Assembly: GCF_024347135.1 (NCBI RefSeq) | Contig: NZ_AP024908.1 | Location: 620,001-684,000 of the forward strand | Source of the DNA: Vibrio spartinae | GTDB lineage: Bacteria; Pseudomonadota; Gammaproteobacteria; Enterobacterales; Vibrionaceae | Direction: 5' to 3' | DNA: 64,000 nt | In this document: piece after piece, positions 9,075 through 64,000 of the stretch | Numbering within the stretch: position 1 is the first letter of the stretch | Layout of the letters: each line of letters opens with the position of its first letter | Notes under the pieces: model-generated | Database searches by the model: none | Told to the model about the DNA's origin: nothing | Seen by the model: only the letters and a program-made list of their open reading frames with translations | Translations under genes and position numbers: made by a program

Positions 9075-9151
9075 GAGGACAGACACTTTTAACACATCGT
9101 AATTACAACGTAATTACAAGGACAGGCATCGTAATTACAAGGACAGGCACT
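9075..9151 (+). repeat. GGACAGAC-family repeats, three direct copies
   Basis: The first copy is the full motif GAGGACAGACACTTTTAA (9075-9092). Two variant copies, AAGGACAGGCA (9118-9128) and AAGGACAGGCACTTTCAGG (9139-9157), each follow the word CGTAATTACAA, showing tandem duplication of a ~21-base unit. They lie between the TetR gene and the ABC operon, upstream of the putative operator. Confidence 0.8.
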
Positions 9152-9218
9152 TTCAGGTATTCCTACCCAAACACTGCCTATACATTATTCACCATATTGA
9201 TAATAAAGTCAGTAAAAA

Positions 9219-9234
9219 CTACACAGTTGGTCAG
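9219..9234. promoter_or_regulatory. candidate RutR-like operator before the ABC importer operon
   Basis: CTACACAGTTGGTCAG matches one half of the RutR consensus (TGGTCA) well and the other half poorly. It is followed by TTTTTTGCA, exactly as at 13166-13182 before the binding-protein gene. The repeated context supports a shared regulator. Confidence 0.45.
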
Positions 9235-9274
9235 TTTTTTGCATTACGCCTGCTGATATGTTGAAGGGAATACA

Positions 9275-10813
9275 TTGAATATGACAAAAATACCACTCTT
9301 GGAACTCTGGAATGTCAGTAAATTTTTTCCGGGGGTTGTGGCAAATGATCAGGTGAATTTGAAACTTCATACAGGTGAAATTCTAGCCTTGTTGGGTGAA
9401 AATGGAGCCGGAAAATCGACCCTTGTCAAAATGATATATGGTGTCACACGCCCCAGCCAAGGATCGATCTTATGGGATAATCATGAAGTTGAAATCCATT
9501 CTCCTAATCAAGCCAGAACAATGGGAATTGGCATGGTTTTCCAACATTTCTCAGTGTTTGAAACGCTGACAGTATTGGAAAATATCGAATTGGGTCTGGA
9601 TCGAGAATTTCTTCACAAAATTGATAATCTGAAACAGAAAGTGTTGGAAATCAGCCAACGTTACGATCTGCAAGTTGATCCGGACCGCTATGTGCATCAT
9701 CTTAGTATCGGCGAACGGCAACGGTTGGAGATATTACGCTGCCTCATTCAGGATATTCGCTTACTCATTCTTGATGAACCCACATCTGTTCTAACCCCTC
9801 AGGAAGTCGCCGGATTATTTCGTGTGCTACGCAAACTCGCCGGTGAAGGTTGTAGTATTTTATTTATCAGCCACAAACTCAAAGAAGTTACAGCCCTGTG
9901 TGATCGAGCGCTGATCCTCCGTGGTGGCAAAGTCACAGGGGCGTGTATTCCGGCACAAGAAACCCCGAACTCAATTGCCCGAATGATGGTTGGTAGCGAT
10001 ACCGAACTCTCAGAAAGTTATCCAAAATCGTTGGGGGGACAGACACTTTTACAGACCAATGCGCTGACTTTATCGCCAACCCACCCGTTTGGCTGTGGCC
10101 TGACGAATGTCAACCTGTCGATGCACAGTGGCGAGATTCTCGGCGTTGCCGGTGTGGCCGGAAATGGTCAGGAAGATCTGTTGGAAGCGTTAAGCGGAGA
10201 AGATCACCGTACACCAAAAGAGAGCATTTTCTTTCATGGTCAACCTGTCGGGCATTTAGATGCAGGCGCCAGACGCGCACTCGGCATGGCGTATGTACCG
10301 ACCAACCGTTTAGGACAAGGTGCCGTACCGGATATGACGCTGGAAGAAAATACACTACTGACACATACCGCTGAACTGACCCGTTTCGGCTTTATTCAGC
10401 AAAAAATGATGCAAACCCTCGCCCGCAAACTGATCCGAGATAATCAGGTGAAATGCCGGAATGAACAAGCTCAGGCCAAGAGCCTCTCCGGAGGGAACCT
10501 ACAAAAGTTCATTATTGGCCGTGAAGTCAATCAACAACCGACCATCTTGATTTGCGCCCACCCGACTTGGGGCGTTGATATCGGTGCAGCCAGTGCCATT
10601 CATCGTCAACTGATCGCCTTAAGAGATGCCGGTGCTGCCATTATTGTCATCTCGGAGGATATCGATGAACTGTTCGTCATTAGCGATCGGCTTGCCGCCA
10701 TTTATGAAGGACAGGTGTCTCCAATCGTCAAGACCAGTGAAACCAATATCGAGCAAATCGGACAATGGATTGCCGGTGGCTTTTTAAAGGATGAGGAACT
10801 CGCCAATGCTTAA
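9275..10813 (+). CDS. purine/nucleoside (BMP-type) ABC transporter ATP-binding protein
   Basis: A double ATPase of the RbsA/YufO type, 512 aa, working with two permeases and a BMP-family binding protein downstream to import nucleosides or purine bases. The first half has an intact Walker A (GENGAGKSTLV, ~42-52), the signature LSIGERQRLEILRCL and Walker B LLILDEPTSVL. The second half has a degenerate Walker A (GVAGNGQEDLL, no lysine), usual in this family, and the signature LSGGNLQKFIIGRE. A TTG start at 9275 fits the AAGGG site 6 bases upstream; ATG at 9281 is the alternative. Between the two halves, 10037-10051 carries a GGACAGAC-type repeat in frame (GGQTLLQ). Confidence 0.93.
   Translation: MNMTKIPLLELWNVSKFFPGVVANDQVNLKLHTGEILALLGENGAGKSTLVKMIYGVTRPSQGSILWDNHEVEIHSPNQARTMGIGMVFQHFSVFETLTVLENIELGLDREFLHKIDNLKQKVLEISQRYDLQVDPDRYVHHLSIGERQRLEILRCLIQDIRLLILDEPTSVLTPQEVAGLFRVLRKLAGEGCSILFISHKLKEVTALCDRALILRGGKVTGACIPAQETPNSIARMMVGSDTELSESYPKSLGGQTLLQTNALTLSPTHPFGCGLTNVNLSMHSGEILGVAGVAGNGQEDLLEALSGEDHRTPKESIFFHGQPVGHLDAGARRALGMAYVPTNRLGQGAVPDMTLEENTLLTHTAELTRFGFIQQKMMQTLARKLIRDNQVKCRNEQAQAKSLSGGNLQKFIIGREVNQQPTILICAHPTWGVDIGAASAIHRQLIALRDAGAAIIVISEDIDELFVISDRLAAIYEGQVSPIVKTSETNIEQIGQWIAGGFLKDEELANA
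10037..10051 (+). repeat. GGACAGAC-family repeat inside the ABC ATPase gene
   Basis: GGACAGACACTTTTA matches the dispersed motif exactly over 15 bases and reads in frame as Gly-Gln-Thr-Leu-Leu, in the linker between the two ATPase halves. A linker should tolerate a short insertion. Confidence 0.7.
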
Positions 10814-11972
10814 AGTTCAACCGCGCGTCGAAAGTTCACGCATCATGGCATGGTTTTCACCACTGATTGCGATTTCACTGACATTACTGATTTCCAGCCT
10901 GATGTTATTCTGGCTGCATGTCAGCCCGGTCAAAGCTTTCAACGTCTTTTTACTCCAACCTTTCAGCGATAATTACAACCTTGGTGAATTGATGGTGAAA
11001 GCGACCCCTTTACTGCTCTGTGCTGTTGGTCTGGCTATCTGTTATCGGGCAAATATCTGGAATATAGGTGCGGAGGGGCAACTGTTGATCGGTGCCGTCG
11101 CCAGTAGTGCTGTCGCAGTTCATGCCAGTGAAGATGCGGGTATGGCCATGTTAGGGCTCGCCTTATTAGCTGGAATTATCGCGGGCATGTGCTGGTCGGC
11201 AATCCCCACATTACTCAACCGACTGTTTCATACCAATATTATTCTGACTACGATCATGCTCAACTATATTGGACTGTATGTTCTGCTTTGGGCGGTTCAT
11301 GGACCATTGAGCGATCCCGATGGTTTTGGTTTCCCTGAGTCGATCATCTTCCCTGACAGTGTCATGTTACCACTCTTGTTTGACAGCGGACGCGCATCGG
11401 TCAGTATTATTGCTGCCATTGTGATTGCCTTCATTACCGCCATCCTTCTGTTCAAAACATTGCCGGGATTTAAAATCCGCGTTTTCGGTGAGGATGCCTC
11501 CGCGGCACAATATGCCGGATTTAACCGGAATAAAATTGTCTGGGGCGTCATGCTATTTGCCGGCGCATTAGCCGGATTCGCCGGTGCTGCTGAAGTGACT
11601 GGTCCGATCGGGCAATTGATCCCTTCCGTCTCTCCGGGATATGGCTATGCTGCGATTATTGTCGCTTATCTGGGCAGACTCAATCCAATCGGAATTATTG
11701 TGTCATCTTTCTTCATGGGCGCCTTATACATGGGGAGCGATCTCGCTCAGATTGAATTAGGTCTGCCGACCGCAGTCACCGGCCTCTTTCAGGGCATTCT
11801 GCTGTTTTCACTGCTCGCGTGTGATTTCCTGATCCATTACCAAATCAAAGTCCGCAGAAAAAGACCGACCGTCACAACGACCGCTTCTGCAATCACACCA
11901 GCTCTCGCGCTCTCAAATGAGACGGTTCCCCCTCAAACCAGCCACCAGCAAAATGATAACGGAGCGGCTTAA
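10806..11972 (+). CDS. BMP-type ABC transporter permease 1 (YufP-like)
   Basis: An inner-membrane permease, 388 aa from the ATG at 10806; AGGA lies 8 bases upstream. The in-frame ATG at 10791 has its AGG directly adjacent and is less likely. It overlaps the ATPase gene by 8 bases. About nine or ten hydrophobic spans are seen. Family markers are GLAICYRANIWNIGAEGQLLIGAVA, GVMLFAGALAGFAGAAEVTG and YGYAAIIVAYLGRLNPIGI, which belong to the BPD_transp_2 permeases of purine, nucleoside and ribose importers. The last ~40 residues (RRKRPTVTTTASAITP...) are a polar Thr/Ala/Gln-rich tail, longer than I would expect. Confidence 0.92.
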   Translation: MLKVQPRVESSRIMAWFSPLIAISLTLLISSLMLFWLHVSPVKAFNVFLLQPFSDNYNLGELMVKATPLLLCAVGLAICYRANIWNIGAEGQLLIGAVASSAVAVHASEDAGMAMLGLALLAGIIAGMCWSAIPTLLNRLFHTNIILTTIMLNYIGLYVLLWAVHGPLSDPDGFGFPESIIFPDSVMLPLLFDSGRASVSIIAAIVIAFITAILLFKTLPGFKIRVFGEDASAAQYAGFNRNKIVWGVMLFAGALAGFAGAAEVTGPIGQLIPSVSPGYGYAAIIVAYLGRLNPIGIIVSSFFMGALYMGSDLAQIELGLPTAVTGLFQGILLFSLLACDFLIHYQIKVRRKRPTVTTTASAITPALALSNETVPPQTSHQQNDNGAA

Positions 11973-12904
11973 TGGACATACTTTTCATCCAACAAATATT
12001 AATTGCTGCTTTAAAAACAGGCACCCCATTACTGCTCATTGCTCTGGGGGAACTGGTCTGTGAAAAATCAGGCGTACTGAATCTCGGTCAGGAAGGCATG
12101 ATGCTCATGGGGGCAATGGCTGGATTCGCCGGTACCTACTTCAGTGGCAGTCTCGCCTTAGGATTGCTCATCGCAATGTTTGCCGGCACCATGATGGCGC
12201 TATTGTTTGCCATACTGACTCAGACCCTGAACACCAATCAGGTCGCCACCGGCTTGGCCCTGACGATTTTCGGTACCGGGCTGAGCGCATTTCTCGGCAG
12301 TCAATTGGTAGGGAATACCATTGAAGGGTTTCAGGAGATAGCCATTCCCGGGCTCAGCCAGATTCCTTTTATCGGCCCGATCCTATTTCAGCACGATTTA
12401 TTGGTCTACCTCAGTTTTATGATTGTCGGTCTGACTTGGTGGGTCATGCATAGAACTCGCTTAGGACTGACCATCCGTGCCGTGGGAGAAAACCCACATG
12501 CAGCGAATGCATTGGGGATTCATGTCATTCGCCTTCGCTATGGCGTCATTGCATTTGGTGGGGCGATGGCCGGGCTTGCTGGCGCTTATATGTCACTGGC
12601 TTATACCCCGATGTGGATGGAAAATATGACCGCAGGGCGAGGATGGATCGCGCTCGCACTGGTCGTCTTTGCATCTTGGCGAATTGGTTACCTGATGCTC
12701 GGTGCCTACTTATTTGGATGCAGCTCAATCATGCATTTGGTGATGCAGGGATTAGGCATTGATATCTCCCCCAATTTATTAGCGATGATTCCCTATCTGG
12801 CGACAGTGATTGTCATGGTCTTGATCAGTTCTGATGCATTACGTCAAAAATTGGCAACCCCGATGAGTCTGGGAAAACCATTTGATCCCAAATTACATTC
12901 ATAG
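11972..12904 (+). CDS. BMP-type ABC transporter permease 2 (YufQ-like)
   Basis: The second membrane subunit of the same importer, 310 aa. Its ATG shares a base with the stop of permease 1 (TAATG), so translation is coupled. Markers include LVCEKSGVLNLGQEGMMLMG, LNTNQVATGLALTIFGTGLS and RAVGENPHAANALGIHV, followed by GGAMAGLAGAYMSLAY, all typical of the BPD_transp_2 partner subunit in guanosine/xanthine-type systems. About eight hydrophobic spans are visible. A set of four 16-bp tandem repeats starts two bases after the stop, then a terminator, separating it from the binding-protein gene. Confidence 0.93.
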   Translation: MDILFIQQILIAALKTGTPLLLIALGELVCEKSGVLNLGQEGMMLMGAMAGFAGTYFSGSLALGLLIAMFAGTMMALLFAILTQTLNTNQVATGLALTIFGTGLSAFLGSQLVGNTIEGFQEIAIPGLSQIPFIGPILFQHDLLVYLSFMIVGLTWWVMHRTRLGLTIRAVGENPHAANALGIHVIRLRYGVIAFGGAMAGLAGAYMSLAYTPMWMENMTAGRGWIALALVVFASWRIGYLMLGAYLFGCSSIMHLVMQGLGIDISPNLLAMIPYLATVIVMVLISSDALRQKLATPMSLGKPFDPKLHS

Positions 12905-12905
12905 C

Positions 12906-12969
12906 TAAGTTCGTTCATAAATAAGTTCGTCCATAGATAAGTTCGTTCATAGATAAGTCCGTCCATCGC
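12906..12969 (+). repeat. four tandem 16-bp repeats after the permease gene
   Basis: The units are TAAGTTCGTTCATAAA, TAAGTTCGTCCATAGA, TAAGTTCGTTCATAGA and TAAGTCCGTCCATCGC, in perfect 16-base register from 12906 to 12969. They begin immediately after the stop codon of permease 2. Units 2 to 4 alternate TTCAT and CCAT. No function is known to me. Confidence 0.9.
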
Positions 12970-13003
12970 TAATTCATCATGCAGTGGCACCACCATTTAA
13001 TCA

Positions 13004-14378: not shown

Positions 14379-14384
14379 TCACTG

Positions 14385-14426: not shown

Positions 14427-14435
14427 CGACATAAC

Positions 14436-14472: not shown

Positions 14473-15927
14473 ATGCTCGAAGTGATGATCAACAACCAAA
14501 TCGTCAGTATTCCTGCGATATCTGCCGATATGATGCTACTGACTTATCTCAGAGAACACCGTGCATTAAAAGGCACCAAAGAAGGCTGTGCCAGTGGTGA
14601 CTGTGGTGCATGTACCGTGGTGATGGTTGACCAAGATGAACACCATGCACTGCGTTATCGCCAGATCAATGCATGCATTACCCCATTACATGCGGTACAC
14701 GGAAAACAGATCATCACCGTCGAATCCCTGAAACAAGGGGAACAGCTCCACCCGGTTCAGCAAGCCGTTATCAATCGGCATGGCAGTCAATGCGGGTTCT
14801 GTACCCCCGGTTTTGTGATGTCACTCTATGCGCTCTCAAAACAGAAAAACCGCCCCGAGAACCCCGCTGATTTTCTAGCAGGCAATCTATGCCGCTGCAC
14901 CGGATACGGCCCGCTCATTCAAGCCGCCCATGATATCGTTCAAACCAATTCCCCCGATCCCCTTGATGCGGATCAACATGCCGTCCAACATTGGCTGGCT
15001 CAAGTACCACCACTCCAGTCTGAACACTATTTCATGCCGGAGACTCGTCAGGCGTTAGCTCAGTTACGCCAAACGCACCCCACGGCAAAATTGGTTGCCG
15101 GAGGGACCGATCTCTCTTTGGAAGTGACACAACGGTATCAGTCTCTCCCTTTGTTGATCGATGTTTCCAAAGTCGATGATCTGCTCACCATCACTGAAAC
15201 CAACGATGGCTGGCGACTGGGCGCGGCGATCCCGATGTATCGTGTTCATCAATTTATGCAGCAGCACTTCCCGTCAACCGATGAAGTGATTGAACGCTTG
15301 GGAAGTATAACCATCCGTCACCGCGCGACGTTGGGCGGCAGTCTCGGCCATGCCTCACCTATCGGTGATATTGCACCTTTACTCATCAGCTTAAATGGTC
15401 AGATTGAAGTTGATAATGGCAGACAACGCATCCGATATGCGCCCGAAGATTATATAACCGGTTATCGTCAGACTCGGTTGCAAGATGATGAATGGATCAG
15501 TGCCATCTATCTACCCAAACTAGCGCAACAGCAGCGCCATGCGATCTATAAAGTCAGCAAACGTTATGAAGACGATATTGCCACCGTTGTACTCGCCTTA
15601 AATTTCACGTTTGATACGCATCAACATATCAGTCACTGCATTATCGCCGCCGGTGGCGTTGCGGAAAAATCCGTGCGTCTGACAGCATTAGAGACCCCAT
15701 TTATCGGTCAGCCCCTGACCCAATCGCTGATCCGTGACGTTCAGACACGGGTTCCTCAGGTTATCCATCCACTGAGTGATATTCGCGGTTCAGCCCAATA
15801 TCGGATTCATCTGGTGCAAAACCTGCTTCAACGTTATTTCTTAGAAAATCAAAATATTACAGTGCAACAGCAACAACCCGAACATCAATCTCCCTCCATT
15901 CAAACGAGGTTGACTTATCATGCGTAA
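14473..15927 (+). CDS. xdhA: xanthine dehydrogenase small subunit (Fe-S/FAD) XdhA
   Basis: This subunit carries electrons from the molybdenum subunit to NAD+ during oxidation of hypoxanthine and xanthine to urate. It has a plant-type 2Fe-2S domain (Cys39, Cys44, Cys47 in CASGDCGAC), the all-helical 2Fe-2S domain (QCGFCTPGFVMSLYAL and GNLCRCTGYGPLIQAA), then a FAD-binding domain from ~190 with LVAGGTDLSLEVTQR and ITIRHRATLGGSLGHASPIGD split over two strands, and a C-terminal CO-dehydrogenase flavoprotein domain. Length of 484 aa is near the bacterial norm (~460-480). AAGGAA lies 8 bases before the ATG. It overlaps xdhB by 8 bases. Confidence 0.96.
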   Translation: MLEVMINNQIVSIPAISADMMLLTYLREHRALKGTKEGCASGDCGACTVVMVDQDEHHALRYRQINACITPLHAVHGKQIITVESLKQGEQLHPVQQAVINRHGSQCGFCTPGFVMSLYALSKQKNRPENPADFLAGNLCRCTGYGPLIQAAHDIVQTNSPDPLDADQHAVQHWLAQVPPLQSEHYFMPETRQALAQLRQTHPTAKLVAGGTDLSLEVTQRYQSLPLLIDVSKVDDLLTITETNDGWRLGAAIPMYRVHQFMQQHFPSTDEVIERLGSITIRHRATLGGSLGHASPIGDIAPLLISLNGQIEVDNGRQRIRYAPEDYITGYRQTRLQDDEWISAIYLPKLAQQQRHAIYKVSKRYEDDIATVVLALNFTFDTHQHISHCIIAAGGVAEKSVRLTALETPFIGQPLTQSLIRDVQTRVPQVIHPLSDIRGSAQYRIHLVQNLLQRYFLENQNITVQQQQPEHQSPSIQTRLTYHA

Positions 15928-18448
15928 ACTTATTCGTCAGCCCTATACGGCACAACCAGCCCACTCTTCTCAGCATCGATCAGACGTAGTTGGTCAATCG
16001 TTACTGCATGAAAGTGCTAAAAAGCAAGTTTCCGGAGAGGCATTGTTTGTCGATGATTATCCGGAACCACACGGATGCTTACATGGTGCAGTGATCACCA
16101 GTACCATCGCCAAAGGCACCATCAAGCATCTCGATCTGTCTGAAGTACAGCAGTCTCCGGGAGTCATTCGCGTCATAACCCATCACGATATTCCGGGTCA
16201 TAATGAAATTGGCACCATTCATAAAGGCGATCCGCTGCTATGTCAGCATGACATCCGCTATTTTTGTCAACCCATTGCCTTTGTCATCGCAGAAAGCCAC
16301 CAACTCGCTTGCCAAGCGGCACGCAAAGCATTGATTGAATATGAAGAAGTCAGCGATCCCGTGATCTCGTATCAACAAGCGTCGCAACAGGCTCATTTAC
16401 TTCCACCTCACCAGATGGGAACCTACCGAGGACAGACGTTTTTAACCAATTCTTACCGAGGACAGACACTTTTAAAACCGACACTTTTAAAACCTGCAAC
16501 AAACCCCGTAAACATCAGCGGTACGTTGGCGGTCGGCGGACAAGAGCATTTCTATCTGGAAGGACAAATCAGTCTTGCCGAGTTGACGGAAGACGGCGGC
16601 ATTTTTATCCGGGCATCAACCCAGCATCCGACCGAAGTGCAAAATCTGATTGCTGAAGTGCTGAACATCCCTTTCAATCTCGTCACAGTTGATATGCGCC
16701 GTATGGGTGGTGGATTTGGTGGCAAAGAGACGCAAGCCGCGGCATGGGCTTGTCTTGCCAGTCTGGGTGCAAAACTCACCCGGAAAGCGGTTAAATTCAG
16801 ACTCCCGCGAGCAGTTGACATGTCAACAACTGGTAAACGCCATCCCTTTTTTAATCGTTATGAACTGACGACAACTGACGATGGGGAAATACTGGCGGCG
16901 AATATCGAAGTCAATGGATTATGCGGTCATTCCGCCGACTTATCTGATGCCATTGTTGATCGCGCCATGTTCCACGCTGACAACGCTTATTTTCTCGGAC
17001 AGGCCAGCATCCTTGGCAACCGCCTCAAAACGGATACCGTTTCACATACGGCATTTCGAGGGTTTGGCGGACCACAAGGGATGCTGGTGATTGAAAAAGC
17101 GATGCAAGATTTGGCAATTACATTGCAGCAAGATCCGTTCGATATTCGTCTCAAAAATCTCTATCGCCCGGGGAAATCCGTCACACCTTATGGGATGGAA
17201 GTCGAACAAACCGCTGAACTTTATGAGGTACTCACCCGACTGGAAACTTCCTGTGATTACCGTCAGCGACGTCAGGAAATCCACGTATGGAACCGACATC
17301 ATCCGGTGCTCAAAAAAGGATTGGCGCTGACCCCAGTTAAATTTGGTATTTCGTTTACAGCAACACACCTCAATCAAGCTGGTGCACTCATCCATATTTA
17401 TACCGATGGAACAGTGCAGGTTTCACATGGCGGTACCGAAATGGGCCAAGGGCTCCATACAAAAATCCAACAAATTGTTGCTCAGACATTCGGCATTCCC
17501 ACCGACTGGATCTTAGTCACATCGACGAGAACCGATAAAGTACCGAATACTTCACCAACGGCGGCTTCTTCCGGGGCCGACCTCAACGGCATGGCTGCAC
17601 ATAACGCAGCTATGGCCCTCAAGGAGCGACTGCTCGACTTTGCGGTAAATCATCACGAGTGTCTGTCCTCTCAGCACGCCTCTCAGACACAACGACCGGC
17701 TCACGGATGCCTGTCCTCGCAACCTCTATCCTCGCAATCTAGCTCGCCCACACCTGAGATTAAAGATGGCATCCTCTATCTCGATACCGCAAAAATTGAA
17801 TGGGCCACCTTAATTCAGCAGGCTTATTTAAATCGTGTGTCCCTGTCTGCAACAGGTTATTACAGTACCCCTAAAATTGGTTATGACCGCTCACAGGCTT
17901 GTGGGCGTCCCTTTTTCTATTTTGCCATCGGCGCTTCCTGTTCAGAGGTGATGATCGATACACTCACTGGAGAAATGACGGTCGAGCGAGTGGATATCTT
18001 GCATGATGTTGGCAGTAGCTTGAATCCAGCCATTGATATCGGACAGATTGAAGGGGGATATATTCAGGGATTAGGCTGGCTGACGACTGAAGAACTCGTC
18101 TGGAATGATCGAGGACATCTGGTTAGCCATAGTCCGATGAATTATAAAATCCCAAGTATCTGTGACTATCCGAAGCAGATGAATATTGAACTCTACGAGG
18201 TTCCCAATCCGGAACATAGTATTTACCGTTCCAAAGCGGTCGGTGAACCCCCTTTTATGCACGCAATCAGCACTTGGTGTGCGATTTATGATGCCATTGC
18301 CGCAATTTCTGAACATCAGTTCATTCCTGATCTAGACACCCCTGCCACAGGCGAAAGAATACTCACGGCTTGCCAACAACAATATCAATGGTTGGCACAC
18401 CAAACACAGACAACGATGGTTCACCGTCAAGCAGATAGCGAGGGATAA
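15920..18448 (+). CDS. xdhB: xanthine dehydrogenase molybdopterin-binding subunit XdhB, with repeat-derived insertions
   Basis: The catalytic molybdenum subunit. Markers are GEALFVDDYPEP near the N-terminus, the molybdenum-site loops RRMGGGFGGKETQAAA, TAFRGFGGPQGM, HGGTEMGQGLHTKI, and KAVGEPPFMHA with the catalytic glutamate. At 842 aa it is about 60 residues longer than typical XdhB (~780). The excess sits at two places that carry the dispersed GGACAGAC repeat: residues ~170-192 (TYRGQTFLTNSYRGQTLLKP) and ~580-612 (ECLSSQHASQTQRPAHGCLS). Both insertions keep the frame open and spare the conserved loops, so the enzyme may still work. It overlaps xdhA and is followed 2 bases later by xdhC. Confidence 0.95.
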   Translation: MRKLIRQPYTAQPAHSSQHRSDVVGQSLLHESAKKQVSGEALFVDDYPEPHGCLHGAVITSTIAKGTIKHLDLSEVQQSPGVIRVITHHDIPGHNEIGTIHKGDPLLCQHDIRYFCQPIAFVIAESHQLACQAARKALIEYEEVSDPVISYQQASQQAHLLPPHQMGTYRGQTFLTNSYRGQTLLKPTLLKPATNPVNISGTLAVGGQEHFYLEGQISLAELTEDGGIFIRASTQHPTEVQNLIAEVLNIPFNLVTVDMRRMGGGFGGKETQAAAWACLASLGAKLTRKAVKFRLPRAVDMSTTGKRHPFFNRYELTTTDDGEILAANIEVNGLCGHSADLSDAIVDRAMFHADNAYFLGQASILGNRLKTDTVSHTAFRGFGGPQGMLVIEKAMQDLAITLQQDPFDIRLKNLYRPGKSVTPYGMEVEQTAELYEVLTRLETSCDYRQRRQEIHVWNRHHPVLKKGLALTPVKFGISFTATHLNQAGALIHIYTDGTVQVSHGGTEMGQGLHTKIQQIVAQTFGIPTDWILVTSTRTDKVPNTSPTAASSGADLNGMAAHNAAMALKERLLDFAVNHHECLSSQHASQTQRPAHGCLSSQPLSSQSSSPTPEIKDGILYLDTAKIEWATLIQQAYLNRVSLSATGYYSTPKIGYDRSQACGRPFFYFAIGASCSEVMIDTLTGEMTVERVDILHDVGSSLNPAIDIGQIEGGYIQGLGWLTTEELVWNDRGHLVSHSPMNYKIPSICDYPKQMNIELYEVPNPEHSIYRSKAVGEPPFMHAISTWCAIYDAIAAISEHQFIPDLDTPATGERILTACQQQYQWLAHQTQTTMVHRQADSEG
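16428..16494 (+). repeat. GGACAGAC-family repeats in frame inside xdhB (first insertion)
   Basis: Two full copies, GAGGACAGACGTTTTTAA (16428-16445) and GAGGACAGACACTTTTAA (16458-16475), plus a third partial copy GACACTTTTAAAACC (16480-16494), repeat at 30 and ~22 bases. They encode YRGQTFL, YRGQTLLK and PTLLKP. The tandem layout mirrors that of the intergenic cluster at 9075. Confidence 0.85.
17659..17720 (-). repeat. GGACAGAC-family repeats in frame inside xdhB (second insertion, opposite orientation)
   Basis: AGTGTCTGTCCTC (17659-17671) and ATGCCTGTCCTCGCAA (17708-17723) are the reverse complement of the motif. They encode CLSS and CLSSQ in a Ser/Gln-rich stretch that I do not recognise in other XdhB proteins. 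These are the only clear reverse-oriented copies left of the RAYT gene. Confidence 0.8.
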
Positions 18449-22069: not shown

Positions 22070-22172
22070 CACAATCTTCACTTCATCTGAACAAGTTTTC
22101 GAATCATAACTAATTTTAAGCTAAAAGTGTCAGCATCAGGTCGAAACTCTTCTCTGCCAAAGAAACTCTTCC

Positions 22173-22224
22173 AAGGACAGACGTTTTTAGTCCCATTCCA
22201 AGCATTATAAGGACAGACAAAATT
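22173..22224 (+). repeat. GGACAGAC-family repeats, two intergenic copies
   Basis: AAGGACAGACGTTTTTAG (22173-22190) and ATAAGGACAGACAAAATT (22207-22224) lie between two divergent genes, 80-130 bases before the DUF2057 gene start. Confidence 0.8.
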
Positions 22225-22305
22225 ATTCAATTTGTCACTTGTAATTCAGGCAAGAACCATGCATCTTTAGGCAGATTAAATATTTGATAAAAAAGGATAA
22301 TATAA

Positions 22306-24709: not shown

Positions 24710-24769
24710 GATCGTTTGATAGTCCATGGTTGTCAGGGGGCGCCGCAGGCCAGGTTCTTTTTTCTTCTA

Positions 24770-24828
24770 GGGACAGACGTTTTAAGGAAACTGAAACACA
24801 TTCTCTTCTCATGGGGACAGATGTTAAA
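24770..24828 (+). repeat. GGACAGAC-family repeats upstream of the RAYT gene
   Basis: GGGACAGACGTTTTAA (24770-24785) and GGGGACAGATGTTAAA (24813-24828) lie 145-200 bases before the transposase start, in the same orientation as the gene. A reverse-oriented copy lies downstream at 26106, so the gene is bracketed by inverted copies. Confidence 0.85.
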
Positions 24829-24970: not shown

Positions 24971-25927
24971 ATGACTATCCCCAGAACACAGTTGGTTTCT
25001 CCTGATATCACAGCCTACTATCACTGCGTGTCACGTTGCGTCCGACGAGCATTCTTATGCGGAGAAGATCAACTGACCGGGAAATCCTACGAACATCGAC
25101 GTTACTGGGTTGAACAACGTATTTTGGCTTTAGCCCAAGTATATTGTATCGACATCTGCGCCTATGCGGTGATGAGCAACCATTATCATTTGGTCGTTCA
25201 TCTTAACCGACAAAAAGCAGAACAATTATCGGACAGGGAAGTCATCATACGCTGGGGAAAGGAGCATCAGTTGCCATCATTGATCCTGAAATATCTAAAA
25301 AATCAGACGACCAATTCTGAAATTCAGACCTGTCGAACAATCATCTATCTTTGGCGAGAGCGACTCTATTCTCTAAGTTGGTTGATGAAAGAAATCAATT
25401 TCAGTATTGCTAAACAAGCGAATCAGGAAGATCAATGCCGCGGGCATTTCTGGGAAGGTCGATTTAAATCTCAGGCTTTACTAGATGAGAAAGCGCTGCT
25501 GGCAGCAATGGCCTATACAGATCTAAATCCGGTTCGAGCTGGCATCGCTAAAACACCAGAAGCTTCAGAGTATACATCGATTAAGAGACGGCTTGATTTA
25601 CTGAATGCAGCTCAAGCCCCACGCTCAAGGCTTTTTCCATTTGTTGGTGAATCCTCTCATAAAAAATCTGATGGGATTCCATTCCGCCTGATTGATTATA
25701 TTGAGTGGATTGATTGGGTTGGTCGACAAATTCGAGAAGGAAAACCGGGCCGTATTGACAACAAACAACCAACCATTCTCATCCGATTATCTACCAGTCA
25801 TCCCGACAACTTCGACTTATGTACCCGACTAGAACGTAAGCGATGTTTATGGGTCGGTTCATCAAAGCGACTTCAAGTCGTGAAACATCGATTGAATAGG
25901 CAACGTTTACATGGATTATCCATCTAA
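24971..25927 (+). CDS. REP-associated tyrosine transposase (RAYT, Y1/HUH type)
   Basis: A single-strand DNA transposase-like protein of the IS200/IS605 Y1 superfamily, 318 aa from the ATG at 24971 (a TTG at 24953 would add six residues). The HUH metal site is HYH at 71-73 in VMSNHYHLVVHL. The nucleophile is Tyr182 in AYTDLNPVRAGI, the classic RAYT signature. GHFWEGRFKSQALLDEKAL precedes it. The ribosome-binding site is weak. RAYTs are usually single-copy domesticated genes that recognise short chromosomal repeats; here the candidate is the GGACAGAC motif, present on both sides of the gene and across the window. No insertion-sequence ends are seen. Confidence 0.93.
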   Translation: MTIPRTQLVSPDITAYYHCVSRCVRRAFLCGEDQLTGKSYEHRRYWVEQRILALAQVYCIDICAYAVMSNHYHLVVHLNRQKAEQLSDREVIIRWGKEHQLPSLILKYLKNQTTNSEIQTCRTIIYLWRERLYSLSWLMKEINFSIAKQANQEDQCRGHFWEGRFKSQALLDEKALLAAMAYTDLNPVRAGIAKTPEASEYTSIKRRLDLLNAAQAPRSRLFPFVGESSHKKSDGIPFRLIDYIEWIDWVGRQIREGKPGRIDNKQPTILIRLSTSHPDNFDLCTRLERKRCLWVGSSKRLQVVKHRLNRQRLHGLSI

Positions 25928-26065: not shown

Positions 26066-26179
26066 CATTAAGAACTCGCATTAAGAACTCGGCTGCGGAG
26101 TTGGAATGCCTGTCCTCGTAACTCTCGTAACTTAAACCCGGTTGAAACGTGTGTCCTTATTAATATGTCCTTATTAATA
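26066..26179 (-). repeat. degenerate GGACAGAC-family cluster between RAYT and macA
   Basis: A copy in reverse orientation, ATGCCTGTCCTCGTAA, lies at 26106-26121. Before it is a perfect 13-base tandem duplication, CATTAAGAACTCG (26066-26078 and 26079-26091). After it come TGTCCTTATTAATA twice (from ~26153 and ~26166). The 368-base gap (25928-26295) otherwise shows no gene. Confidence 0.7.
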
Positions 26180-30917: not shown

Positions 30918-31301
30918 TCAAAACTCAGAGGGGTGGTATCTCAGATATCGCCCACTCACCCAAGAGACTTCATTTCTGAACTGAATCATCGCCCAGCCAC
31001 GAGAAAAACGATAAACATAAATGTTCTCGCCGTATTCCAGCTGACCAACCGGCCGACCATCCAGTAAATTATCGCCACGCACATTTAACCGTTTTGCCGT
31101 CACCACATAGTTGCCAGCACCCCGGTAAAGTTTTTCCCGGCTCTCTTTATGAGCGGATAACATCGGCTGAAGCTGATGATATCCACTATTCTGAACATGA
31201 TGACATGTCTGTCCTTTCAAACAGCTATTGGCTTGAGCGGTGAGTGTGAAAGACAACCCCATACAGCACAACATTATTATTTTCATACTTTTTTTCATCA
31301 T
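30918..31301 (-). CDS. exported SH3-domain protein
   Basis: A small exported protein, about 127 aa from the ATG pair at 31301. Signal peptide KKSMKIIMLCCMGLSFTLTA, cleavage near QA-NS. After a Cys-containing segment (SCLKGQTCHHV) comes a bacterial SH3 domain (~60-125): YVVTAKRLNVRGDNLLDGRP and YGENIYVYRFSRGWAMIQF, then WVSGRYLRYH. Bacterial SH3 domains of this type often bind peptidoglycan. The DNA for LKGQT is a copy of the GGACAGAC motif (31207-31220). The upstream 60 bases hold several CATACTTT repeats, which make the exact start uncertain. Confidence 0.78.
   Translation of the reverse strand: MMKKSMKIIMLCCMGLSFTLTAQANSCLKGQTCHHVQNSGYHQLQPMLSAHKESREKLYRGAGNYVVTAKRLNVRGDNLLDGRPVGQLEYGENIYVYRFSRGWAMIQFRNEVSWVSGRYLRYHPSEF
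31207..31220 (-). repeat. GGACAGAC-family repeat inside the SH3-protein gene
   Basis: GTCTGTCCTTTCAA is the reverse complement of the motif and is identical to the intergenic copy at 50257-50270. On the coding strand it gives Lys-Gly-Gln-Thr between two cysteines of the mature N-terminus. Confidence 0.6.
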
Positions 31302-32009
31302 TTTTTCATACTTTCTTTCATACTTTTCATATACGACCTTGCAGCATGACCCAACTGAAAATAACCGCATTGACGTATATTCTATACACAACTGATTTCA
31401 AGATACAGTTATCGTATAACAATGACGCATCCTAATTCAGGATATGAATGATTTGGTTGATAATCACCCATTGCCCCCAGCAGTCATGTTCTCTCTCAGA
31501 GAAAGGCTGGGTGCAAAACGTGACTTCGCTATTGACTAGAGAATCAGCGATTTGAACGCGAATGAGACTGCTATCTTAAAAAATGCCGTACACCGGATTT
31601 TTATTTATGCCATTTTTAGCAGTTATAAAAACTAGCTACCAACAACATTTATAAGGCAGTGAAGATGAACAGCAAGATAATTAGCTTCTTCATTTGATAT
31701 ATTTTATTTGTACGTATAAAAAATATAATCACGAGATTTAAATGCACCATTCATTGCTTTAGGATATTTAAAATAAAAATACTCAAATAGAGGAAAATCA
31801 TTATCATGTTACATTTGTCTAGTGCAGAATCTCTCTAGAAAAAATCAATGTGAGCAATACATCTCATATAGTGAATCACCCAACGCTTCAACATACAAGT
31901 GGTTAACTAAAACTGGCCATGATTTGAGCGTTTTCCTAATAAAAATAACCTTATCATCTTCATAAGAAAACATTATTCTATCCTTTAAATTTAAAGTGTA
32001 TTGATAATA
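31302..32009. other. AT-rich gene-free stretch
   Basis: About 700 bases with no supported gene. The first part holds repeated CATACTTT words before the SH3 gene. From ~31570 the DNA becomes very AT-rich with poly-A and poly-T runs, unlike its left neighbours, and stays so through 33.5 kb, matching the base bias of surface-polysaccharide DNA. Confidence 0.4.
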
Positions 32010-41119: not shown

Positions 41120-42181
41120 CTACTGTGCATCGATTGGAAACACATGGGTCACAATCTGATCCCCGATTTCCAGTCCGGATAAAATTTCAACCGAGTCACC
41201 ATAATCCTGCCCGAGCCGGACTGGATTCAGTCGCTGTGCTTTTCCTTCGCCCTTCACGCGCAACACCGCACTGAGCTCTCCTCGTCGGATCACCGCAGTT
41301 TTCGGCACCAGCACAACTTGTCTGTCCCCAGTATGGAATGAGGCTTTCACCCACATCCCCGGTGCAAGTTCAGCGTCACTTGTCTCAGGCAATCTCAAGC
41401 GCATCGTAAACGTATGGGATTGCGGATCTGCATAACGGAATAACGTATATTGGCTGGGTTGTAGAATGTGTCCGTCCGGCAATTCAATCGAAAACTGTTG
41501 CGCCTGTGTCACCAAAGCACGATATCGTTGCGGCATTTGAAATTCGACCCGCAGCGGTGACATCCCATAACCACTCAATAATGGCATGCCGGGCGAGACG
41601 GTTTCTCCCAACTCAACGTGACGCTGGGTTACAATCCCTGAATAAGGCGCTTTGATACTGGTATAGCCTAACGCATCTTTCGCTTTCACCGTCGCAGCCT
41701 TGGCCGCTTGAACTGCCGCAGCAGCGGTTCGGGCACGTGCTTCTGCACTATCCAGTTGCCCTTGAGAAACCGCGCCTCGTGAGATCAACTGTCGAAAGCG
41801 CTTCACCTGAGTCTGCGCTTCTTTATTCTGAGCAACCGCCTGATTCAGTTGTGCGATTGCGGCATCGTAAGACGCTGTTTGTTGTGTCGCACTGATTTCA
41901 AGTAACACATCACCTTGTTGTACGACATCATTCACATCCACGTACATTCCCACGACTCGCCCGGAAGTTTGAGCCGCAACCGTTCCTTGATTGACCGGCT
42001 GAACAATCCCATCGAAGGTGACTTGCTCGGGTATCGTTGCCCGCTTGACGATCAGTGTCTGTCCCTCTAGGCGCTCCGTTGTCTGTCCCGCTAACGATTC
42101 TCCTGCCTGCGCCTCAAAAAACGTCTGTCCCGCTAAGACCACCACCAGACCCAAAGCCAGTTGCCGTATATGCTGTTTCAT
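41120..42181 (-). CDS. RND efflux periplasmic adaptor, with repeat-derived N-terminus
   Basis: The membrane-fusion partner of the RND pump. The start at 42181 is set by AGGAGGGG 7 bases upstream; an in-frame ATG at 42226 has no such site. A signal peptide (MKQHIRQLALGLVVVLAGQT) is followed by a short spacer, lipoyl domain halves (GTVAAQTSGRVVGMYVDVND and TSIKAPYSGIVTQRHVELGE), a helical hairpin and a beta barrel. The first ~35 residues contain three Gly-Gln-Thr units (AGQTFF, AGQTTE, EGQTLI), each coded by a copy of the GGACAGAC motif. This is extra length at a flexible spot between signal and first domain. Confidence 0.92.
   Translation of the reverse strand: MKQHIRQLALGLVVVLAGQTFFEAQAGESLAGQTTERLEGQTLIVKRATIPEQVTFDGIVQPVNQGTVAAQTSGRVVGMYVDVNDVVQQGDVLLEISATQQTASYDAAIAQLNQAVAQNKEAQTQVKRFRQLISRGAVSQGQLDSAEARARTAAAAVQAAKAATVKAKDALGYTSIKAPYSGIVTQRHVELGETVSPGMPLLSGYGMSPLRVEFQMPQRYRALVTQAQQFSIELPDGHILQPSQYTLFRYADPQSHTFTMRLRLPETSDAELAPGMWVKASFHTGDRQVVLVPKTAVIRRGELSAVLRVKGEGKAQRLNPVRLGQDYGDSVEILSGLEIGDQIVTHVFPIDAQ
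42055..42136 (-). repeat. GGACAGAC-family repeats inside the RND adaptor gene
   Basis: GTGTCTGTCCC (42055-42065), GTTGTCTGTCCCGCTAA (42078-42094) and ACGTCTGTCCCGCTAA (42121-42136) are reverse-oriented copies, about 23 and 43 bases apart. The last two share the same 3' word CCCGCTAA, suggesting local duplication. On the coding strand each reads in frame as Gly-Gln-Thr. Confidence 0.85.
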
Positions 42182-42350
42182 CAGATTCCCCTCCTTTGGC
42201 GAACCTCTTGTTGTTTTCATTTTCATTGATGATATGCCTGAACGAAGCCCACCGAATCAATCACCCATTGCATAAATACAAACCGATTGTTTTTACCAAG
42301 TGGGAGGTTCACACAATGGGGGTTCACACAATGGCTTGCCACCAACATGC

Positions 42351-44759: not shown

Positions 44760-44794
44760 TGGATGTTCTGTCATTTAACGCCCTCACCACCACA

Positions 44795-44829
44795 AAAAAC
44801 GCGCCGGGTATTTGCAACCCAGCGCGTTT
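44795..44829. terminator. terminator between convergent genes
   Basis: AAAAACGCGC-C-GGGT (44795-44809) pairs with ACCC-A-GCGCGTTT across a short loop, with A and T runs on both sides. It serves the CoA-disulfide reductase (+) and the formaldehyde dehydrogenase (-). Confidence 0.8.
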
Positions 44830-44865
44830 GATGCCAGTCACCCGATATCGGGTGAAATGGTCAAT

Positions 44866-46065
44866 CTATGCGGTAACACTACCGTGTGGATCAATAACGA
44901 ATTTTTTCGCTGCGCCACCATCAAAATCAGCATAACCTTGCGGTGCCTGATCCAACGTGATCAGCTGAACGTTCACCGCTTTTGCAATGTTGACTTTATC
45001 AAACAGAATCGCCTGCATCAGAGAGCGGTGATATTTCATCACCGGGCACTGACCGGTATGAAACGAATGGGATTTCGCCCAACCGAGACCAAAACGCATA
45101 CTCAACGCACCGATTCTTGCCGCTTCATCCGTTGCGCCCGGATCATCCGTCACATACAGCCCCGGGATACCAATTTGGCCACCGGCACGAGTGATTTGCA
45201 TCGCTGAGTTTAACACAGCCGCAGGCGCTTCTTTATGGTGTCCGCCACAGCCACAGCCATGCGCTTCAAACCCAACACAGTCAACAAAACAGTCAACTTC
45301 TCGTTCACCGAGAATCACTTCCAGTTTATCTTCCATATCGCCGTCTTGACGCAAGTCGATCGTTTCACAGCCAAAGCTTCGTGCCTGTTCAAGACGTTCC
45401 TCTATCATGTCACCCACGATCACACACGCAGCCCCCAGCAATTGGGCCGACACAGCAGCAGCGAGACCAACCGGACCAGCCCCTGCGACATACACGGTTG
45501 AACCGGGACCGACACCCGCGGTCACACAGCCGTGGAAGCCGGTCGGGAAGATATCAGAGAGCAATGTCAGATCCCGAATTTTTTCCATTGCCTGATCTGA
45601 ATCAGGGAACTTCAGCAGATTGAAATCAGCATACGGTACCATCACGTACTCTGACTGGCCACCGACCCAGCCCCCCATATCGACATAACCATAAGCAGCG
45701 CCGGGACGTGCCGGGTTGACATTCAGACAGATGCCCGTCATACCGGATTTACAGTTGCGACAGCGTCCACAAGCAATGTTGAAAGGAACGGAAACGATAT
45801 CACCCACATTCAGGAATTCAACGTCGTCTCCTTTTTCAAGGATCACACCGGTGATTTCATGACCCAGAACGAGTCCCGCCGATGCGGTTGTCCGTCCGCG
45901 GACCATGTGCTGGTCACTCCCACAAATATTGGTGGTCAGAACCTTCAGGATGACGCCGTGATTACACTTCCTTTTTCCCAGAGCCAACTCCGGAAAAGCG
46001 ATCGATTCAACGGCGACTTGTCCCGGTCCTTTATATACAACACCGTGATTACTGGAATTGCACAT
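44866..46065 (-). CDS. glutathione-independent formaldehyde dehydrogenase (Zn, NAD-dependent)
   Basis: A zinc alcohol-dehydrogenase-family enzyme that oxidises formaldehyde without glutathione, like Pseudomonas putida FdhA. The start at 46065 has AAGGAG 7 bases upstream; a longer frame to 46254 has no matching sequence. Length of 399 aa is the family norm. Catalytic zinc ligands are in TTNICGSDQHMVRGRT and LGHEITG; the structural zinc lobe is CGRCRNCKSGMTGIC; the NAD-binding motif is VYVAGAGPVGLAAA. The characteristic CGCGGHHKEAPAAVLN stretch is present. It is divergent from ahpC, sharing an intergenic region with an OxyR site. Confidence 0.93.
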   Translation of the reverse strand: MCNSSNHGVVYKGPGQVAVESIAFPELALGKRKCNHGVILKVLTTNICGSDQHMVRGRTTASAGLVLGHEITGVILEKGDDVEFLNVGDIVSVPFNIACGRCRNCKSGMTGICLNVNPARPGAAYGYVDMGGWVGGQSEYVMVPYADFNLLKFPDSDQAMEKIRDLTLLSDIFPTGFHGCVTAGVGPGSTVYVAGAGPVGLAAAVSAQLLGAACVIVGDMIEERLEQARSFGCETIDLRQDGDMEDKLEVILGEREVDCFVDCVGFEAHGCGCGGHHKEAPAAVLNSAMQITRAGGQIGIPGLYVTDDPGATDEAARIGALSMRFGLGWAKSHSFHTGQCPVMKYHRSLMQAILFDKVNIAKAVNVQLITLDQAPQGYADFDGGAAKKFVIDPHGSVTA

Positions 46066-46295
46066 TCTGTTCTCCTTAAGCGAATTATTATTGTACTGCG
46101 TCTGCCACGTTAGCGAGCATGAATTCACAATAGATATTCGTATACGACACCATTCAGTCAAGTCGCGACTCATGACTGTCAAGAAAGTATTTTCTGTGGT
46201 GTTGATTAGACTTTTATCACCACAGAAAAGATCCCCGTCAATCATCGCGTTCAATCACCCATGTGATAGCCAGCAATTATCTCAGTTCCGATAAA

Positions 46296-50095: not shown

Positions 50096-50117
50096 TCCGT
50101 TTTCTGTTGTTACCTTT

Positions 50118-50270
50118 GCCTGTCCCTCTAAATCTCTCTAAATCGTCTGTCCCTTTTAGCCCATTTCGTCAGCCCCTAAATCGTCTGTCCCTGTAATTCA
50201 AATTCATCTGTCTCTTGAGTTCTTCTCTTCAAGTGTCTGTCCCTTCAAGAGTACAAGTGTCTGTCCTTTC
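50118..50270 (-). repeat. GGACAGAC-family repeat cluster, five or six reverse-oriented copies
   Basis: In the gap between the IS256 element and the DUF3750 gene lie CCTGTCCCTC (50119-50128), TCGTCTGTCCCTT (50143-50155), TCGTCTGTCCCTG (50181-50193), a degenerate ATCTGTCTCTT (50205-50215), AAGTGTCTGTCCCTTCAAG (50231-50249) and AAGTGTCTGTCCTTTCAA (50255-50272). Several share the word CTAAATCGTCTGTCCC, showing tandem duplication. No gene is present in this stretch. Confidence 0.88.
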
Positions 50271-50386
50271 AATTGCTTTTCGATACAAATCAATCTCGAC
50301 CGAAAATATGCGAGTTATGTCTTTTGCGCCTGAATTGTCTATAGTAGCTTAAGAATCAGTTACATCGTGCATAAGGACGTTCAATC

Positions 50387-61106: not shown

Positions 61107-61139
61107 AATATCCCGGCATTGGATTGATACCGGGATATT
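61107..61139. terminator. terminator between dbpA and the convergent small gene
   Basis: AATATCCCGG (61107-61116) pairs perfectly with CCGGGATATT (61130-61139), loop of 13 bases, preceded by an A-run and lying between convergent genes. Confidence 0.8.
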
Positions 61140-61189
61140 AAGAGAATGATCATCCAATTAATATGGGGACAAAAAATTCGTAATTGGGA

Positions 61190-61537: not shown

Positions 61538-61713
61538 TGATATTCCTAGTTAATATTAAAAATAATAATAACACCTGAGTCCTGAAATAAAATTATTGGG
61601 TGTCATCATAAGAGTCAGAAATTGTATCAGTCTAGTAAAATGTTTCAACGATTCTGATATTTAGATTAAAGAATTGAGTGTATTTTTATAATTCTGCTGA
61701 AGAAAACACTAAA

Positions 61714-61900
61714 GCGTCTGTCCTCATAGCATATCTGTTCTCATAGCAATCATCCTTACAACAATTCAATATGTCGCTACGATTGTGCTAAAGCGTCTAT
61801 GCCTTTATTCCAACAACTTTCCATCACTGTTATGAATACCCGAAGAGCCCGCTAACGTGTCTGTCCTCATAACTTCCATAACTTTTGTTCTCATAACTTT
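61714..61900 (-). repeat. GGACAGAC-family repeat cluster before the GNAT-nitrilase gene
   Basis: Clear reverse-oriented copies are GCGTCTGTCCTCATAGC (61714-61730) and GTGTCTGTCCTCATAAC (61857-61873). Degenerate neighbours keep the same flank: CTGTTCTCATAGC (~61735), AAAGCGTCTATGCCTTTATT (~61790) and TTGTTCTCATAAC (~61886). The rest of the 537-base gap (61538-62074) has no gene. Confidence 0.8.
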
Positions 61901-62074
61901 GTTGGACACAACAGGCGCTTTATGAGTAAAGTAATTGATAACCAAAGCCTAACCAATACCCGACTATTTCACTAAGTTAAATATGGTACACTTACACTAA
62001 TGCAAACTTCCCACCGTAATATTACGTTAGGCAAACCCAGTTTATAATCAAATAGCAAAAATCCAGAGGTACTT

Positions 62075-63613: not shown

Positions 63614-63620
63614 TCAGAAA

Positions 63621-63655
63621 AAAGGAGGGGTAACCCGATAACCCTCCTTTCTTTT
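63621..63655 (+). terminator. terminator after the GNAT-nitrilase gene
   Basis: AAAGGAGGGGTA (63621-63632) pairs with TAACCCTCCTTT (63639-63650) apart from one G-A mismatch, loop ACCCGA, followed by CTTTTC. Confidence 0.85.
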
Positions 63656-63667
63656 CCCACCGACTTA

Positions 63668-63685
63668 AAGTGTCTGTCCTTATAA
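63668..63685 (-). repeat. GGACAGAC-family repeat beside the CRISPR array
   Basis: AAGTGTCTGTCCTTATAA, reverse orientation, lies 10 bases before the first CRISPR repeat. The same word occurs again on the far side of the array at 63974. Confidence 0.8.
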
Positions 63686-63695
63686 CTCAATAACC

Positions 63696-63846
63696 CTGTT
63701 CATCCCCGTGTGTACGGGGAACACTGGAAGCAAGTCGCGGAAGAGGCGAGACAGCGCGGTTCATCCCCGTGTGTACGGGGAACACGGTGAGTTGCTAAAT
63801 GGCTTATTGGGTACATTCGGTTCATCCCCGTGTGTACGGGGAACAC
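63696..63846 (-). CRISPR. type I-E CRISPR array, three repeats and two spacers
   Basis: Three 29-base repeats lie at 63696-63724, 63757-63785 and 63818-63846. On the minus strand they start GTGTTCCCCGTACACACGGG and end GATGAACCG, the E. coli-type I-E repeat with its CCCCGT/ACGGGG hairpin. The two spacers (63725-63756 and 63786-63817) are both 32 bases, the I-E length. The leftmost repeat has one changed base at 63697, as expected for the old, leader-distal end, so the array should be transcribed leftwards from a leader at right. No cas gene is in the window; they may lie beyond the right edge. Confidence 0.95.
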
Positions 63847-63973
63847 TCTAGTTGTAGTGAATTGATTTATAAATATAAATTTCTACATTTACAATCTACC
63901 AACATTTTTTGTCTGTTTTAACGTTCATCGATCCAACCGAAAATGGTAAAACTATCGAGGACTTGGACGCTAT
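63847..63973 (-). promoter_or_regulatory. AT-rich putative CRISPR leader
   Basis: The DNA right of the last repeat is strongly AT-rich (runs such as ATTTATAAATATAAATTT at 63865-63882), typical of a leader that holds the promoter and IHF site. Position and the degenerate repeat at the other end both support this side as the leader. Confidence 0.6.
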
Positions 63974-64000
63974 AGTGTCTGTCCTTATAACTTAGTGTCT
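63974..64000 (-). repeat. GGACAGAC-family repeat at the window end
   Basis: AGTGTCTGTCCTTATAA (63974-63990) is followed by a second copy cut by the window edge (AGTGTCT, 63994-64000), a 20-base tandem period. Confidence 0.75.

Follow-up and report, generated by a model that had tools for sequence, protein, structure and literature searches.

We analysed a 64,000-nucleotide stretch of the Vibrio spartinae genome (contig NZ_AP024908.1, positions 620,001 to 684,000; hereafter the window), in which a gene for a REP-associated tyrosine transposase (RAYT; REP, repetitive extragenic palindrome) lies among copies of a short repeat, GGACAGAC. The genome comprises 5.19 Mb in two contigs, C1 and C2, and the window belongs to the second (C2, 1.19 Mb). 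An earlier reading made from the sequence of the window alone (the sequence-only reading) had drawn attention to the repeat. The gene and the copies, with the window positions of the cores, are as follows; ORF denotes an open reading frame.

24971..25927, + strand: gene for a RAYT-type Y1 HuH transposase (ATG at 24971, 318 codons plus stop) with NHYH and Y-x-D-L-N-P motifs
24764..24786, + strand: upstream flanking copy directed toward the RAYT gene (GGACAGAC at 24771)
26100..26122, - strand: downstream flanking copy directed toward the RAYT gene (GGACAGGC at 26108), with a 9-nt duplication, AGTTACGAG, directly 5' of the core
26141..26163, - strand: second downstream copy, spelled differently (GGACACAC at 26149); a 14-nt tandem duplication here has GGACA at its end
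9070..9156, + strand: intergenic cluster (GGACAGAC at 9077, GGACAGGC at 9120 and 9141) with 11-nt and 21-nt tandem duplications
10030..10052, + strand: copy within the ABC-transporter ORF 9275-10813, in frame as GQT
16423..16475, + strand: two in-frame copies (16430, 16460) in a molybdopterin-cofactor-binding ORF; the site is empty in seven aligned orthologues from outside the genomes that share the block
17653..17723, - strand: two antisense copies (17661, 17709) in the same molybdopterin-cofactor-binding ORF, 15920-18448
22168..22226, + strand: intergenic copies at 22175 and 22211
31199..31221, - strand: in-frame copy in ORF 30918-31391
42049..42137, - strand: three in-frame copies (42057, 42081, 42123) in the N-terminal part of the HlyD-like ORF 41120-42226
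50110..50273, - strand: intergenic cluster of five copies (50118, GGACAGGC; 50145, 50183, 50235, 50259)
61708..61873, - strand: intergenic copies at 61716 and 61859
63664..63991, - strand: copies at 63672 and 63977 flanking CRISPR repeats; the block of repeats extends past the window to C2:695256

The RAYT protein carries the HuH and Y---NP catalytic motifs of the TnpAY1/RAYT superfamily. Its profile matches are significant yet fall under the respective cut-offs (Pfam Y1_Tnp, E value 8e-4, under the curated cut-off; NCBIfam REP_Tyr_transpos, E value 3e-12 and 46.7 bits, under a cut-off of 80), and residues N69 H70 Y71 H72, W160 E161, Y181 and N185 P186 are invariant among 14 homologues. Invariant columns reach as far as R311, which may be compared with the conserved extra C-terminal part of TnpAY1 subclass 2.3. 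The 317 amino acids compared, NHYH, W160 E161 and YTDLNP (YVDLNP in the consensus of the 14), together with four full-length copies in the genome, fit subclass 2.3 by length, motifs and copy number, short of a formal assignment. The sequence-only reading had spoken of a single RAYT: one does stand at the centre of the repeats, and three full-length paralogues lie elsewhere in the genome. A predicted structure had a mean pLDDT (predicted local distance difference test) of 68.7, and a sequence search of the PDB returned one chance-like match (E value 0.008). No tnpB was recognised among the eight ORFs scanned.

Exact copies of GGACAGAC number 24 on both strands of the window, against a mean of 1.29 and a maximum of 4 in 100 shuffles, which agrees with the earlier expectation of one or two by chance. 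The earlier figure of about 26 clear copies corresponds to these 24 exact octamers. Twenty of the 24 octamers score higher for the longer consensus TTAnAAGGACAGACACTTTTAG, by their flanks alone, than the best of 16 control sites, in a test that is not fully independent because its matrix, trained on the copies of relatives, was built from orthologous sites. The four that do not (3035, 36849, 41320 and 43690) are probably background, and GGACAGGC supplies five further good copies (9120, 9141, 17709, 26108 and 50118). The sites that had been listed agree with ours, the one at 26.1 kb being GGACAGGC, and the inverted copies that had been seen to bracket the RAYT gene are those at 24771 (+) and 26108 (-). 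A fuller form of the repeat had also been proposed, and 164 copies from five orthologous blocks, excluding those near the ends of stretches, gave the consensus TTa.AaGGACAGACACTTTtag with 3.8 and 3.4 bits of information in the two flanks. By comparison, 56 copies of GGACAGRC elsewhere in the genome had 1.1 and 1.0 bits and no consensus. Although our choice of ORFs makes about 83% of the window coding, 16 of the 25 good copies are intergenic, with seven in sense and two in antisense orientation within ORFs. All seven sense copies are translated as GGA-CAG-AC (Gly-Gln-Thr).

The motif had been described from the outset as lacking an internal palindrome, and we found neither a ladder of covarying arms nor a folding excess across the 164 copies (mean z-score of the minimum free energy, -0.05). 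A weak hairpin hinted at by the consensus, TTAnAAG-GACAGACA-CTTTTA, was rejected for want of both. The upstream consensus, TTa.Aa, differs from the 5' GTAG/GTGG tag of REPs.

The repeats had been described as a dispersed family. They do occupy many sites in the window, but they are not spread over the genome: GGACAGAC occurs 169 times in the 5.19 Mb against 142 for the reversed word, without a clear excess, and we discarded the idea of a genome-wide family. A motif no more common genome-wide than expected had been named as grounds for abandoning the proposal. That is literally the genome-wide outcome, but solely as a result of the confinement of the repeats to the neighbourhood of the RAYT. 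The excess lies in a single block that surrounds the RAYT gene over about 77 kb (window -1.2 to 75.3 kb; C2:618.8 to 695.3 kb). The 85 kb of C2:615-700 kb hold 38 of the 55 GGACAGRC in 464 kb that include the window, and all nine exact genomic matches to the stricter pattern RAGGACAGRCDYTTT fall in the block. With one mismatch allowed, the pattern has 26 genomic matches (9 for the reversed pattern), 16 of them in the block. Pooled over four genomes, the density is 17.5 per 10 kb at 0-1 kb from the RAYT gene, with none at 1-2 kb, then 3.0-6.8 at 2-30 kb and 1.3 at 40-50 kb, against 0-1.0 for the reversed word.

Within the V. spartinae block, 32 of 39 GGACAGRC are directed at the RAYT gene. Such a common aim might also be expected if the motif served another protein as a regulatory site or in organising the chromosome, for example as a terminus-region signal, with the RAYT there by chance, and the block does lie less than 100 kb from the terminus of its chromosome. 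The GC skew of C2 switches at about 590-600 kb, and the best match to an E. coli-like 28-mer dif query lies at C2:594766 (594.8 kb, 4 mismatches); both are about 50 kb from the RAYT gene. The centre of the block, however, is the RAYT gene and not the dif-like site, on which ground a terminus signal for this chromosome was ruled out, and other spellings surround other RAYTs, those of other families included (see below). We therefore give the organising-site explanation very little credence.

Motif spelling and distribution of RAYTs

The motif was compared with the RAYT sequences at 70 RAYT loci of the genus, taken nearest kin first among the matches listed, with 10 kb on each side and a tree made by a quick method. 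In clade A, GGACAG[AG]C outnumbers GGACAC[AG]C at 22 of 22 loci. In clade B the reverse holds at 22 of 23. A third group of 25 loci has both spellings, many of its loci with few copies. Both spellings occur in V. spartinae, where 26 copies of GGACACAC form a block of their own around two clade-B RAYTs (C1:1156-1266 kb), well separated from the C2 block of GGACAGAC. Another clade-B RAYT, at C2:232 kb, has no block although it matches one of these two at 98.96% identity (1,344 aligned columns), which may mean that the gene comes first and the block later. Elsewhere in the genus, one locus (L178, G104:C1:1323001-1343000) holds four RAYT genes in about 6.4 kb.

The most divergent protein column compared was residue 158, H or R beside the W-E motif, which is H in 41 of 45 G-type proteins, and R in 49 and H in 21 of 70 C-type proteins. 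Among 10 independent pairs about five differ in the same way, none in the opposite way and five not at all (median p 0.06, uncorrected for the choice of column). Judged from these sequences, the residue may help set the spelling, and we offer it as a lead only.

We also examined 80 named loci, the best 80 of 577 (16 Vibrionaceae and 64 from outside, including Marinomonas, Microbulbifer, Alteromonas, Paraglaciecola, Pseudoalteromonas, Colwellia and Shewanella). Three of the 16 (L212, L217 and L222) duplicate loci of the 70, leaving 147 distinct loci of 150. Across the three groups, the density of GACA[GC]NCA within 500 nt of the gene is 27-32 per 10 kb and that of the reversed word 2.4-4.4, and over whole loci the forward word exceeds the reversed at 64 of 70, 57 of 64 and 15 of 16 loci. 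GACA[GC]-type words stand at the gene, mostly inverted, in 144 of the 147 distinct loci, and 471 of 507 copies within 700 nt are directed at the gene. Wide clusters, counted in the 74 named loci that remained after six shorter than 8 kb were left out, include 19 copies of GGACACCC in Microbulbifer thermotolerans (L236), 12 of GACAGGCA in Alteromonas marina (L285) and 11 of GGACAGAC in Photobacterium halotolerans (L221). Farther out, at 3-10 kb, copies directed toward and away from the gene number 24 and 9 in the orthologous blocks and 44 and 18 in clade B. A general rule that all copies point at the RAYT was dropped: the orientation is strong below 3 kb in clade A and mixed farther away.

A RAYT match at an E value of 1e-3 or better, weak in some cases, is present in 72 of 196 genomes of the genus. 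The extended form TTNNRRGGACAGACRYTTT was found in 13 of the same 196 genomes, all among the 72 RAYT-positive ones, and in none of the 124 RAYT-negative ones; the reversed pattern had one match. The proposal of a hairpin-free repeat that is linked to the RAYT and may belong to a different class of substrate has held up. The linkage between RAYT and motif is strongly supported by the centring of the block, the absence from 124 genomes, the empty sites in one gene described below and the spelling of the clades.

Conservation and turnover of the repeat sites

The block is kept in four relatives, with a fifth seen in parts, and copy numbers vary. The orthologous blocks surround RAYT orthologues of 84-90% identity, although their positions differ: contig C1 in G131, inverted on C2 in G155 and elsewhere on C2 in G084. 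The neighbourhood of the block is syntenic, its aligned pieces are about 77-93% identical, and several alignment breaks coincide with repeat sites. A recent arrival, in which the repeats are local since the RAYT is new and genome-wide spread would follow later, is the published reading for palindromic REPs (proposed for those of Marinomonas and for Thauera; PMC2817692, PMC8266576, in the parts drawn on here), and the near-identical C2:232 copy without a block would suit it. It is improbable here, because species this far apart have the block and its sites in common, which indicates that the repeats stayed local through several speciations and speaks against mere recency.

Seven chosen orthologous sites were aligned in four or five genomes each. 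Units that contain a GGACAGRC and measure about 20-50 nt differ in number among species in intergenic DNA and ORFs alike, and the number of LAGQT-like repeats in the HlyD-like ORF 41120-42226 differs likewise. A comparison of occupied and empty sites, as had been suggested for a check, was made in ORF 15920-18448. Its in-frame inserts occur in all five block genomes that have the gene (our own, G110, G131, G155 and G084; no match was listed for G195) and are absent from seven aligned orthologues of 66-70% identity, six of them from genomes (G173, G152, G019, G040, G176 and G191) not among the RAYT-positive ones. The sites of this one gene are thus empty outside the block genomes. Of 25 other loci fetched for this ORF, 24 lack GGACAGRC; the remaining one, L317, has it once, outside any consensus context. 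L317 and L319, from genomes with GGACAC-type RAYTs, carry three GGACACRC each; the block genomes have one, except G155.

Tandem duplications, defined as a 10-nt word repeated at a spacing of 6-50 nt, occur at 2.7-5.1 per kb near motifs in four blocks against 0.13-0.30 away from them, an excess partly built in because the motif itself repeats. There were none near 16 motifs outside the block. Several duplications start or stop at the motif without containing it twice; for example, GGACA|GACACTTTTAAAACC is duplicated at 16465 and CGTAATTACAA is duplicated ahead of GGACAGG at 9098. The copies within a site often have site-specific flanks in common and resemble tandem duplications, as would be expected if old repeats multiplied passively by replication slippage or recombination and the RAYT merely used the flanking pair as ends. 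G110 may be read in the same way. Its RAYT orthologue (C2:655.9-658.0 kb, L320) is interrupted by an insert of about 1.1 kb with a 197-amino-acid frame, presumably of the IS630 transposase type, which it resembles, and the copies that we looked at are retained; G110 does not count as a relative without the RAYT, since the gene is present, though interrupted. Against passive growth stand an extended 20-nt consensus common to sites tens of kilobases apart, a block that tracks the RAYT and its spelling, and the lack of the extended motif in genomes without a RAYT match, and we consider it unlikely.

It is likely, in our judgement, that the RAYT recognises a linear GGACA[GC] word and that it seeds and duplicates short repeats mainly near its own gene. 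The recognition word would be short and linear, here TTAnAAGGACAGACACTTTTAG, and not a hairpin, and the inverted copies that bracket the gene would probably be the ends of the RAYT's own mobile unit. These inverted flanks, and a near-identical 1.34-kb unit bounded close to motif copies, suggest that the gene may move between motif-marked ends. New copies would be seeded from the flanking ends within about 50 kb of the gene, and an occupied site would grow by short tandem duplications (about 9-45 nt), probably after nicking at the motif and then local copying. Within genes only in-frame outcomes would survive. Locality could result from action near the enzyme's own gene, by cis preference or by transfer within one replication fork. 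From the sequence we infer catalysis by the RAYT, its cutting of the motif, the order of these steps and the cause of the locality. More tentatively, with the doubts prevailing, subclass-2.3 RAYTs in general might be cis-restricted local mutators, each with its own linear word, that nick and duplicate only within about 50 kb over evolutionary time and so make spelling-specific chromosome territories with intergenic repeats and in-frame GQT-type peptides.

Several results weigh against the proposed role of the RAYT. No single insertion with an exact pre-insertion sequence was found among the compared sites, within-site growth could be due to RAYT-independent slippage, and the built-in part of the duplication excess counts here as well. 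Five paralogues in G098 bear out motif-marked ends in part only: on the 5' side, half of the 10 pairs become alike at GGACAC or directly beside it and the other five about 50-60 nt farther in, while the likeness on the 3' side extends just past the gene and has no motif where it stops. No usable empty site of the 1.34-kb C2:232 unit was obtained with a query that included 42 nt of the unit. The spelling is mixed or unclear at 35 of 150 loci (147 distinct); eight of the 22 supporting clade-B loci have three or fewer words, and the one exception in that clade is V. spartinae's own C1:1176, with 10 GGACAG[AG]C against 7 GGACAC[AG]C. Many RAYT loci have flanking copies and no wide block, and at 3-10 kb the other clade-A loci have 62 copies toward and 82 away from the gene. 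Two motif-like copies, one full-form, lie at C1:3294612-3295279 with no RAYT match listed nearby, possibly as a relic. Finally, 59 of the 72 RAYT-positive genomes lack the extended GGACAGAC form, which is expected if other RAYTs use other words.

Some further features of the window and its surroundings may be noted. A type I-E CRISPR-Cas locus (63696-63846 and C2:684.3-692.8 kb, L041 304-8756; Pfam matches Cas1, CRISPR_assoc, Cas5, CT1975, Cse2, Cse1 and Cas3) lies between identical motif copies in the same orientation at 63672 and 73506, and the alignment with G084 passes directly over most of it. It may have been gained or lost by recombination between the repeats. ORF 44866-46254 (44757-46295) is present in G155 with a further 4.5 kb; in its place G131 has about 18 kb and G084 about 0.4 kb, in both cases with motif copies. 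Repeat sites may be hot spots of larger insertions. Four tandem 16-nt AAGTTCGTTCATAGAT-like units near a gene end (12891-12970) have no relation to GGACAG.

Comparison with known systems

The closest known relatives of the protein are in TnpAY1 subclass 2.3. In the part of the survey of Quentin et al. (2018; PMC6006769) drawn on here, this subclass has a median length of 325 amino acids, NHYH, WE and YVDLNP motifs and about four copies per genome, with Chromatiales and Alteromonadales named, and it had no REP-like sequences by automatic or manual search. Our RAYT is alike in length, in NHYH, WE and Y-x-DLNP, in having several copies per genome and in coming from a marine gammaproteobacterium. 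It differs in that GGACA[GC] repeats flank the genes and in some genomes form local blocks, with GACA[GC]-type words at the gene in all but three of the 147 distinct loci. The 2018 survey had left this widespread transposase subclass without a substrate, for which the motif is now a candidate.

TIRYTs and their TIRtrons also have a RAYT-like gene between inverted repeats that are not of the GTAG hairpin type, with end-repeat families and some dimers or clusters. The GGGGWSAS inverted repeats that Di Nocera et al. (2013; PMC3733652) describe at related genes overlap GGGACA[GC]; compared with our core GGACA[GC], the last six letters fit, and the two preceding letters are A or G, mostly A. However, 20 of 26 TIRYTs were put in subclass 2.1 (Quentin et al., 2018; PMC6006769), and the portion of the 2013 report used here describes neither clade-specific spellings nor blocks that extend for tens of kilobases about the gene.

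REP/RAYT systems (REPtrons) likewise have a Y1 enzyme flanked by inverted repeats, and each enzyme has its cognate repeat. The REPs themselves are palindromic, bear a GTAG-type tag and usually occur throughout the genome, whereas our motif is a linear word without palindrome or hairpin, and a RAYT-type enzyme would here be tied to such a word. In the parts of these reports consulted, four genomes had repeats gathered near the gene, over no more than about 200 kb (Nunvar et al., 2010; PMC2817692), and the local repeats of the Marinomonas MWYL1 REPtrons Ma and Mb were read as a recent arrival (PMC8266576). Here the block is kept through several species, and that reading does not explain a local restriction that outlasts speciation. 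Elements of the IS200/IS605 family (IS608, ISDra2) would share HuH/Y1 chemistry by homology. The differences seen are the lack of a hairpin in the motif copies folded and the lack of a recognised tnpB among the eight ORFs scanned.

In the literature, judged by titles and abstract openings, we found no treatment of the motif at subclass 2.3, and among the papers listed for the motif words no title concerned bacterial repeats. Nature supplies matched pairs of enzyme clade and spelling with which recognition and the reason for the locality can be tested directly, as can a route from mobile repeats to peptide insertions in proteins. Already published are the local occurrence of palindromic REPs and the GGGGWSAS inverted repeats beside related genes; as far as our searches go, repeats at subclass 2.3, a linear word, a spelling specific to the clade and a block that several species have kept are new.

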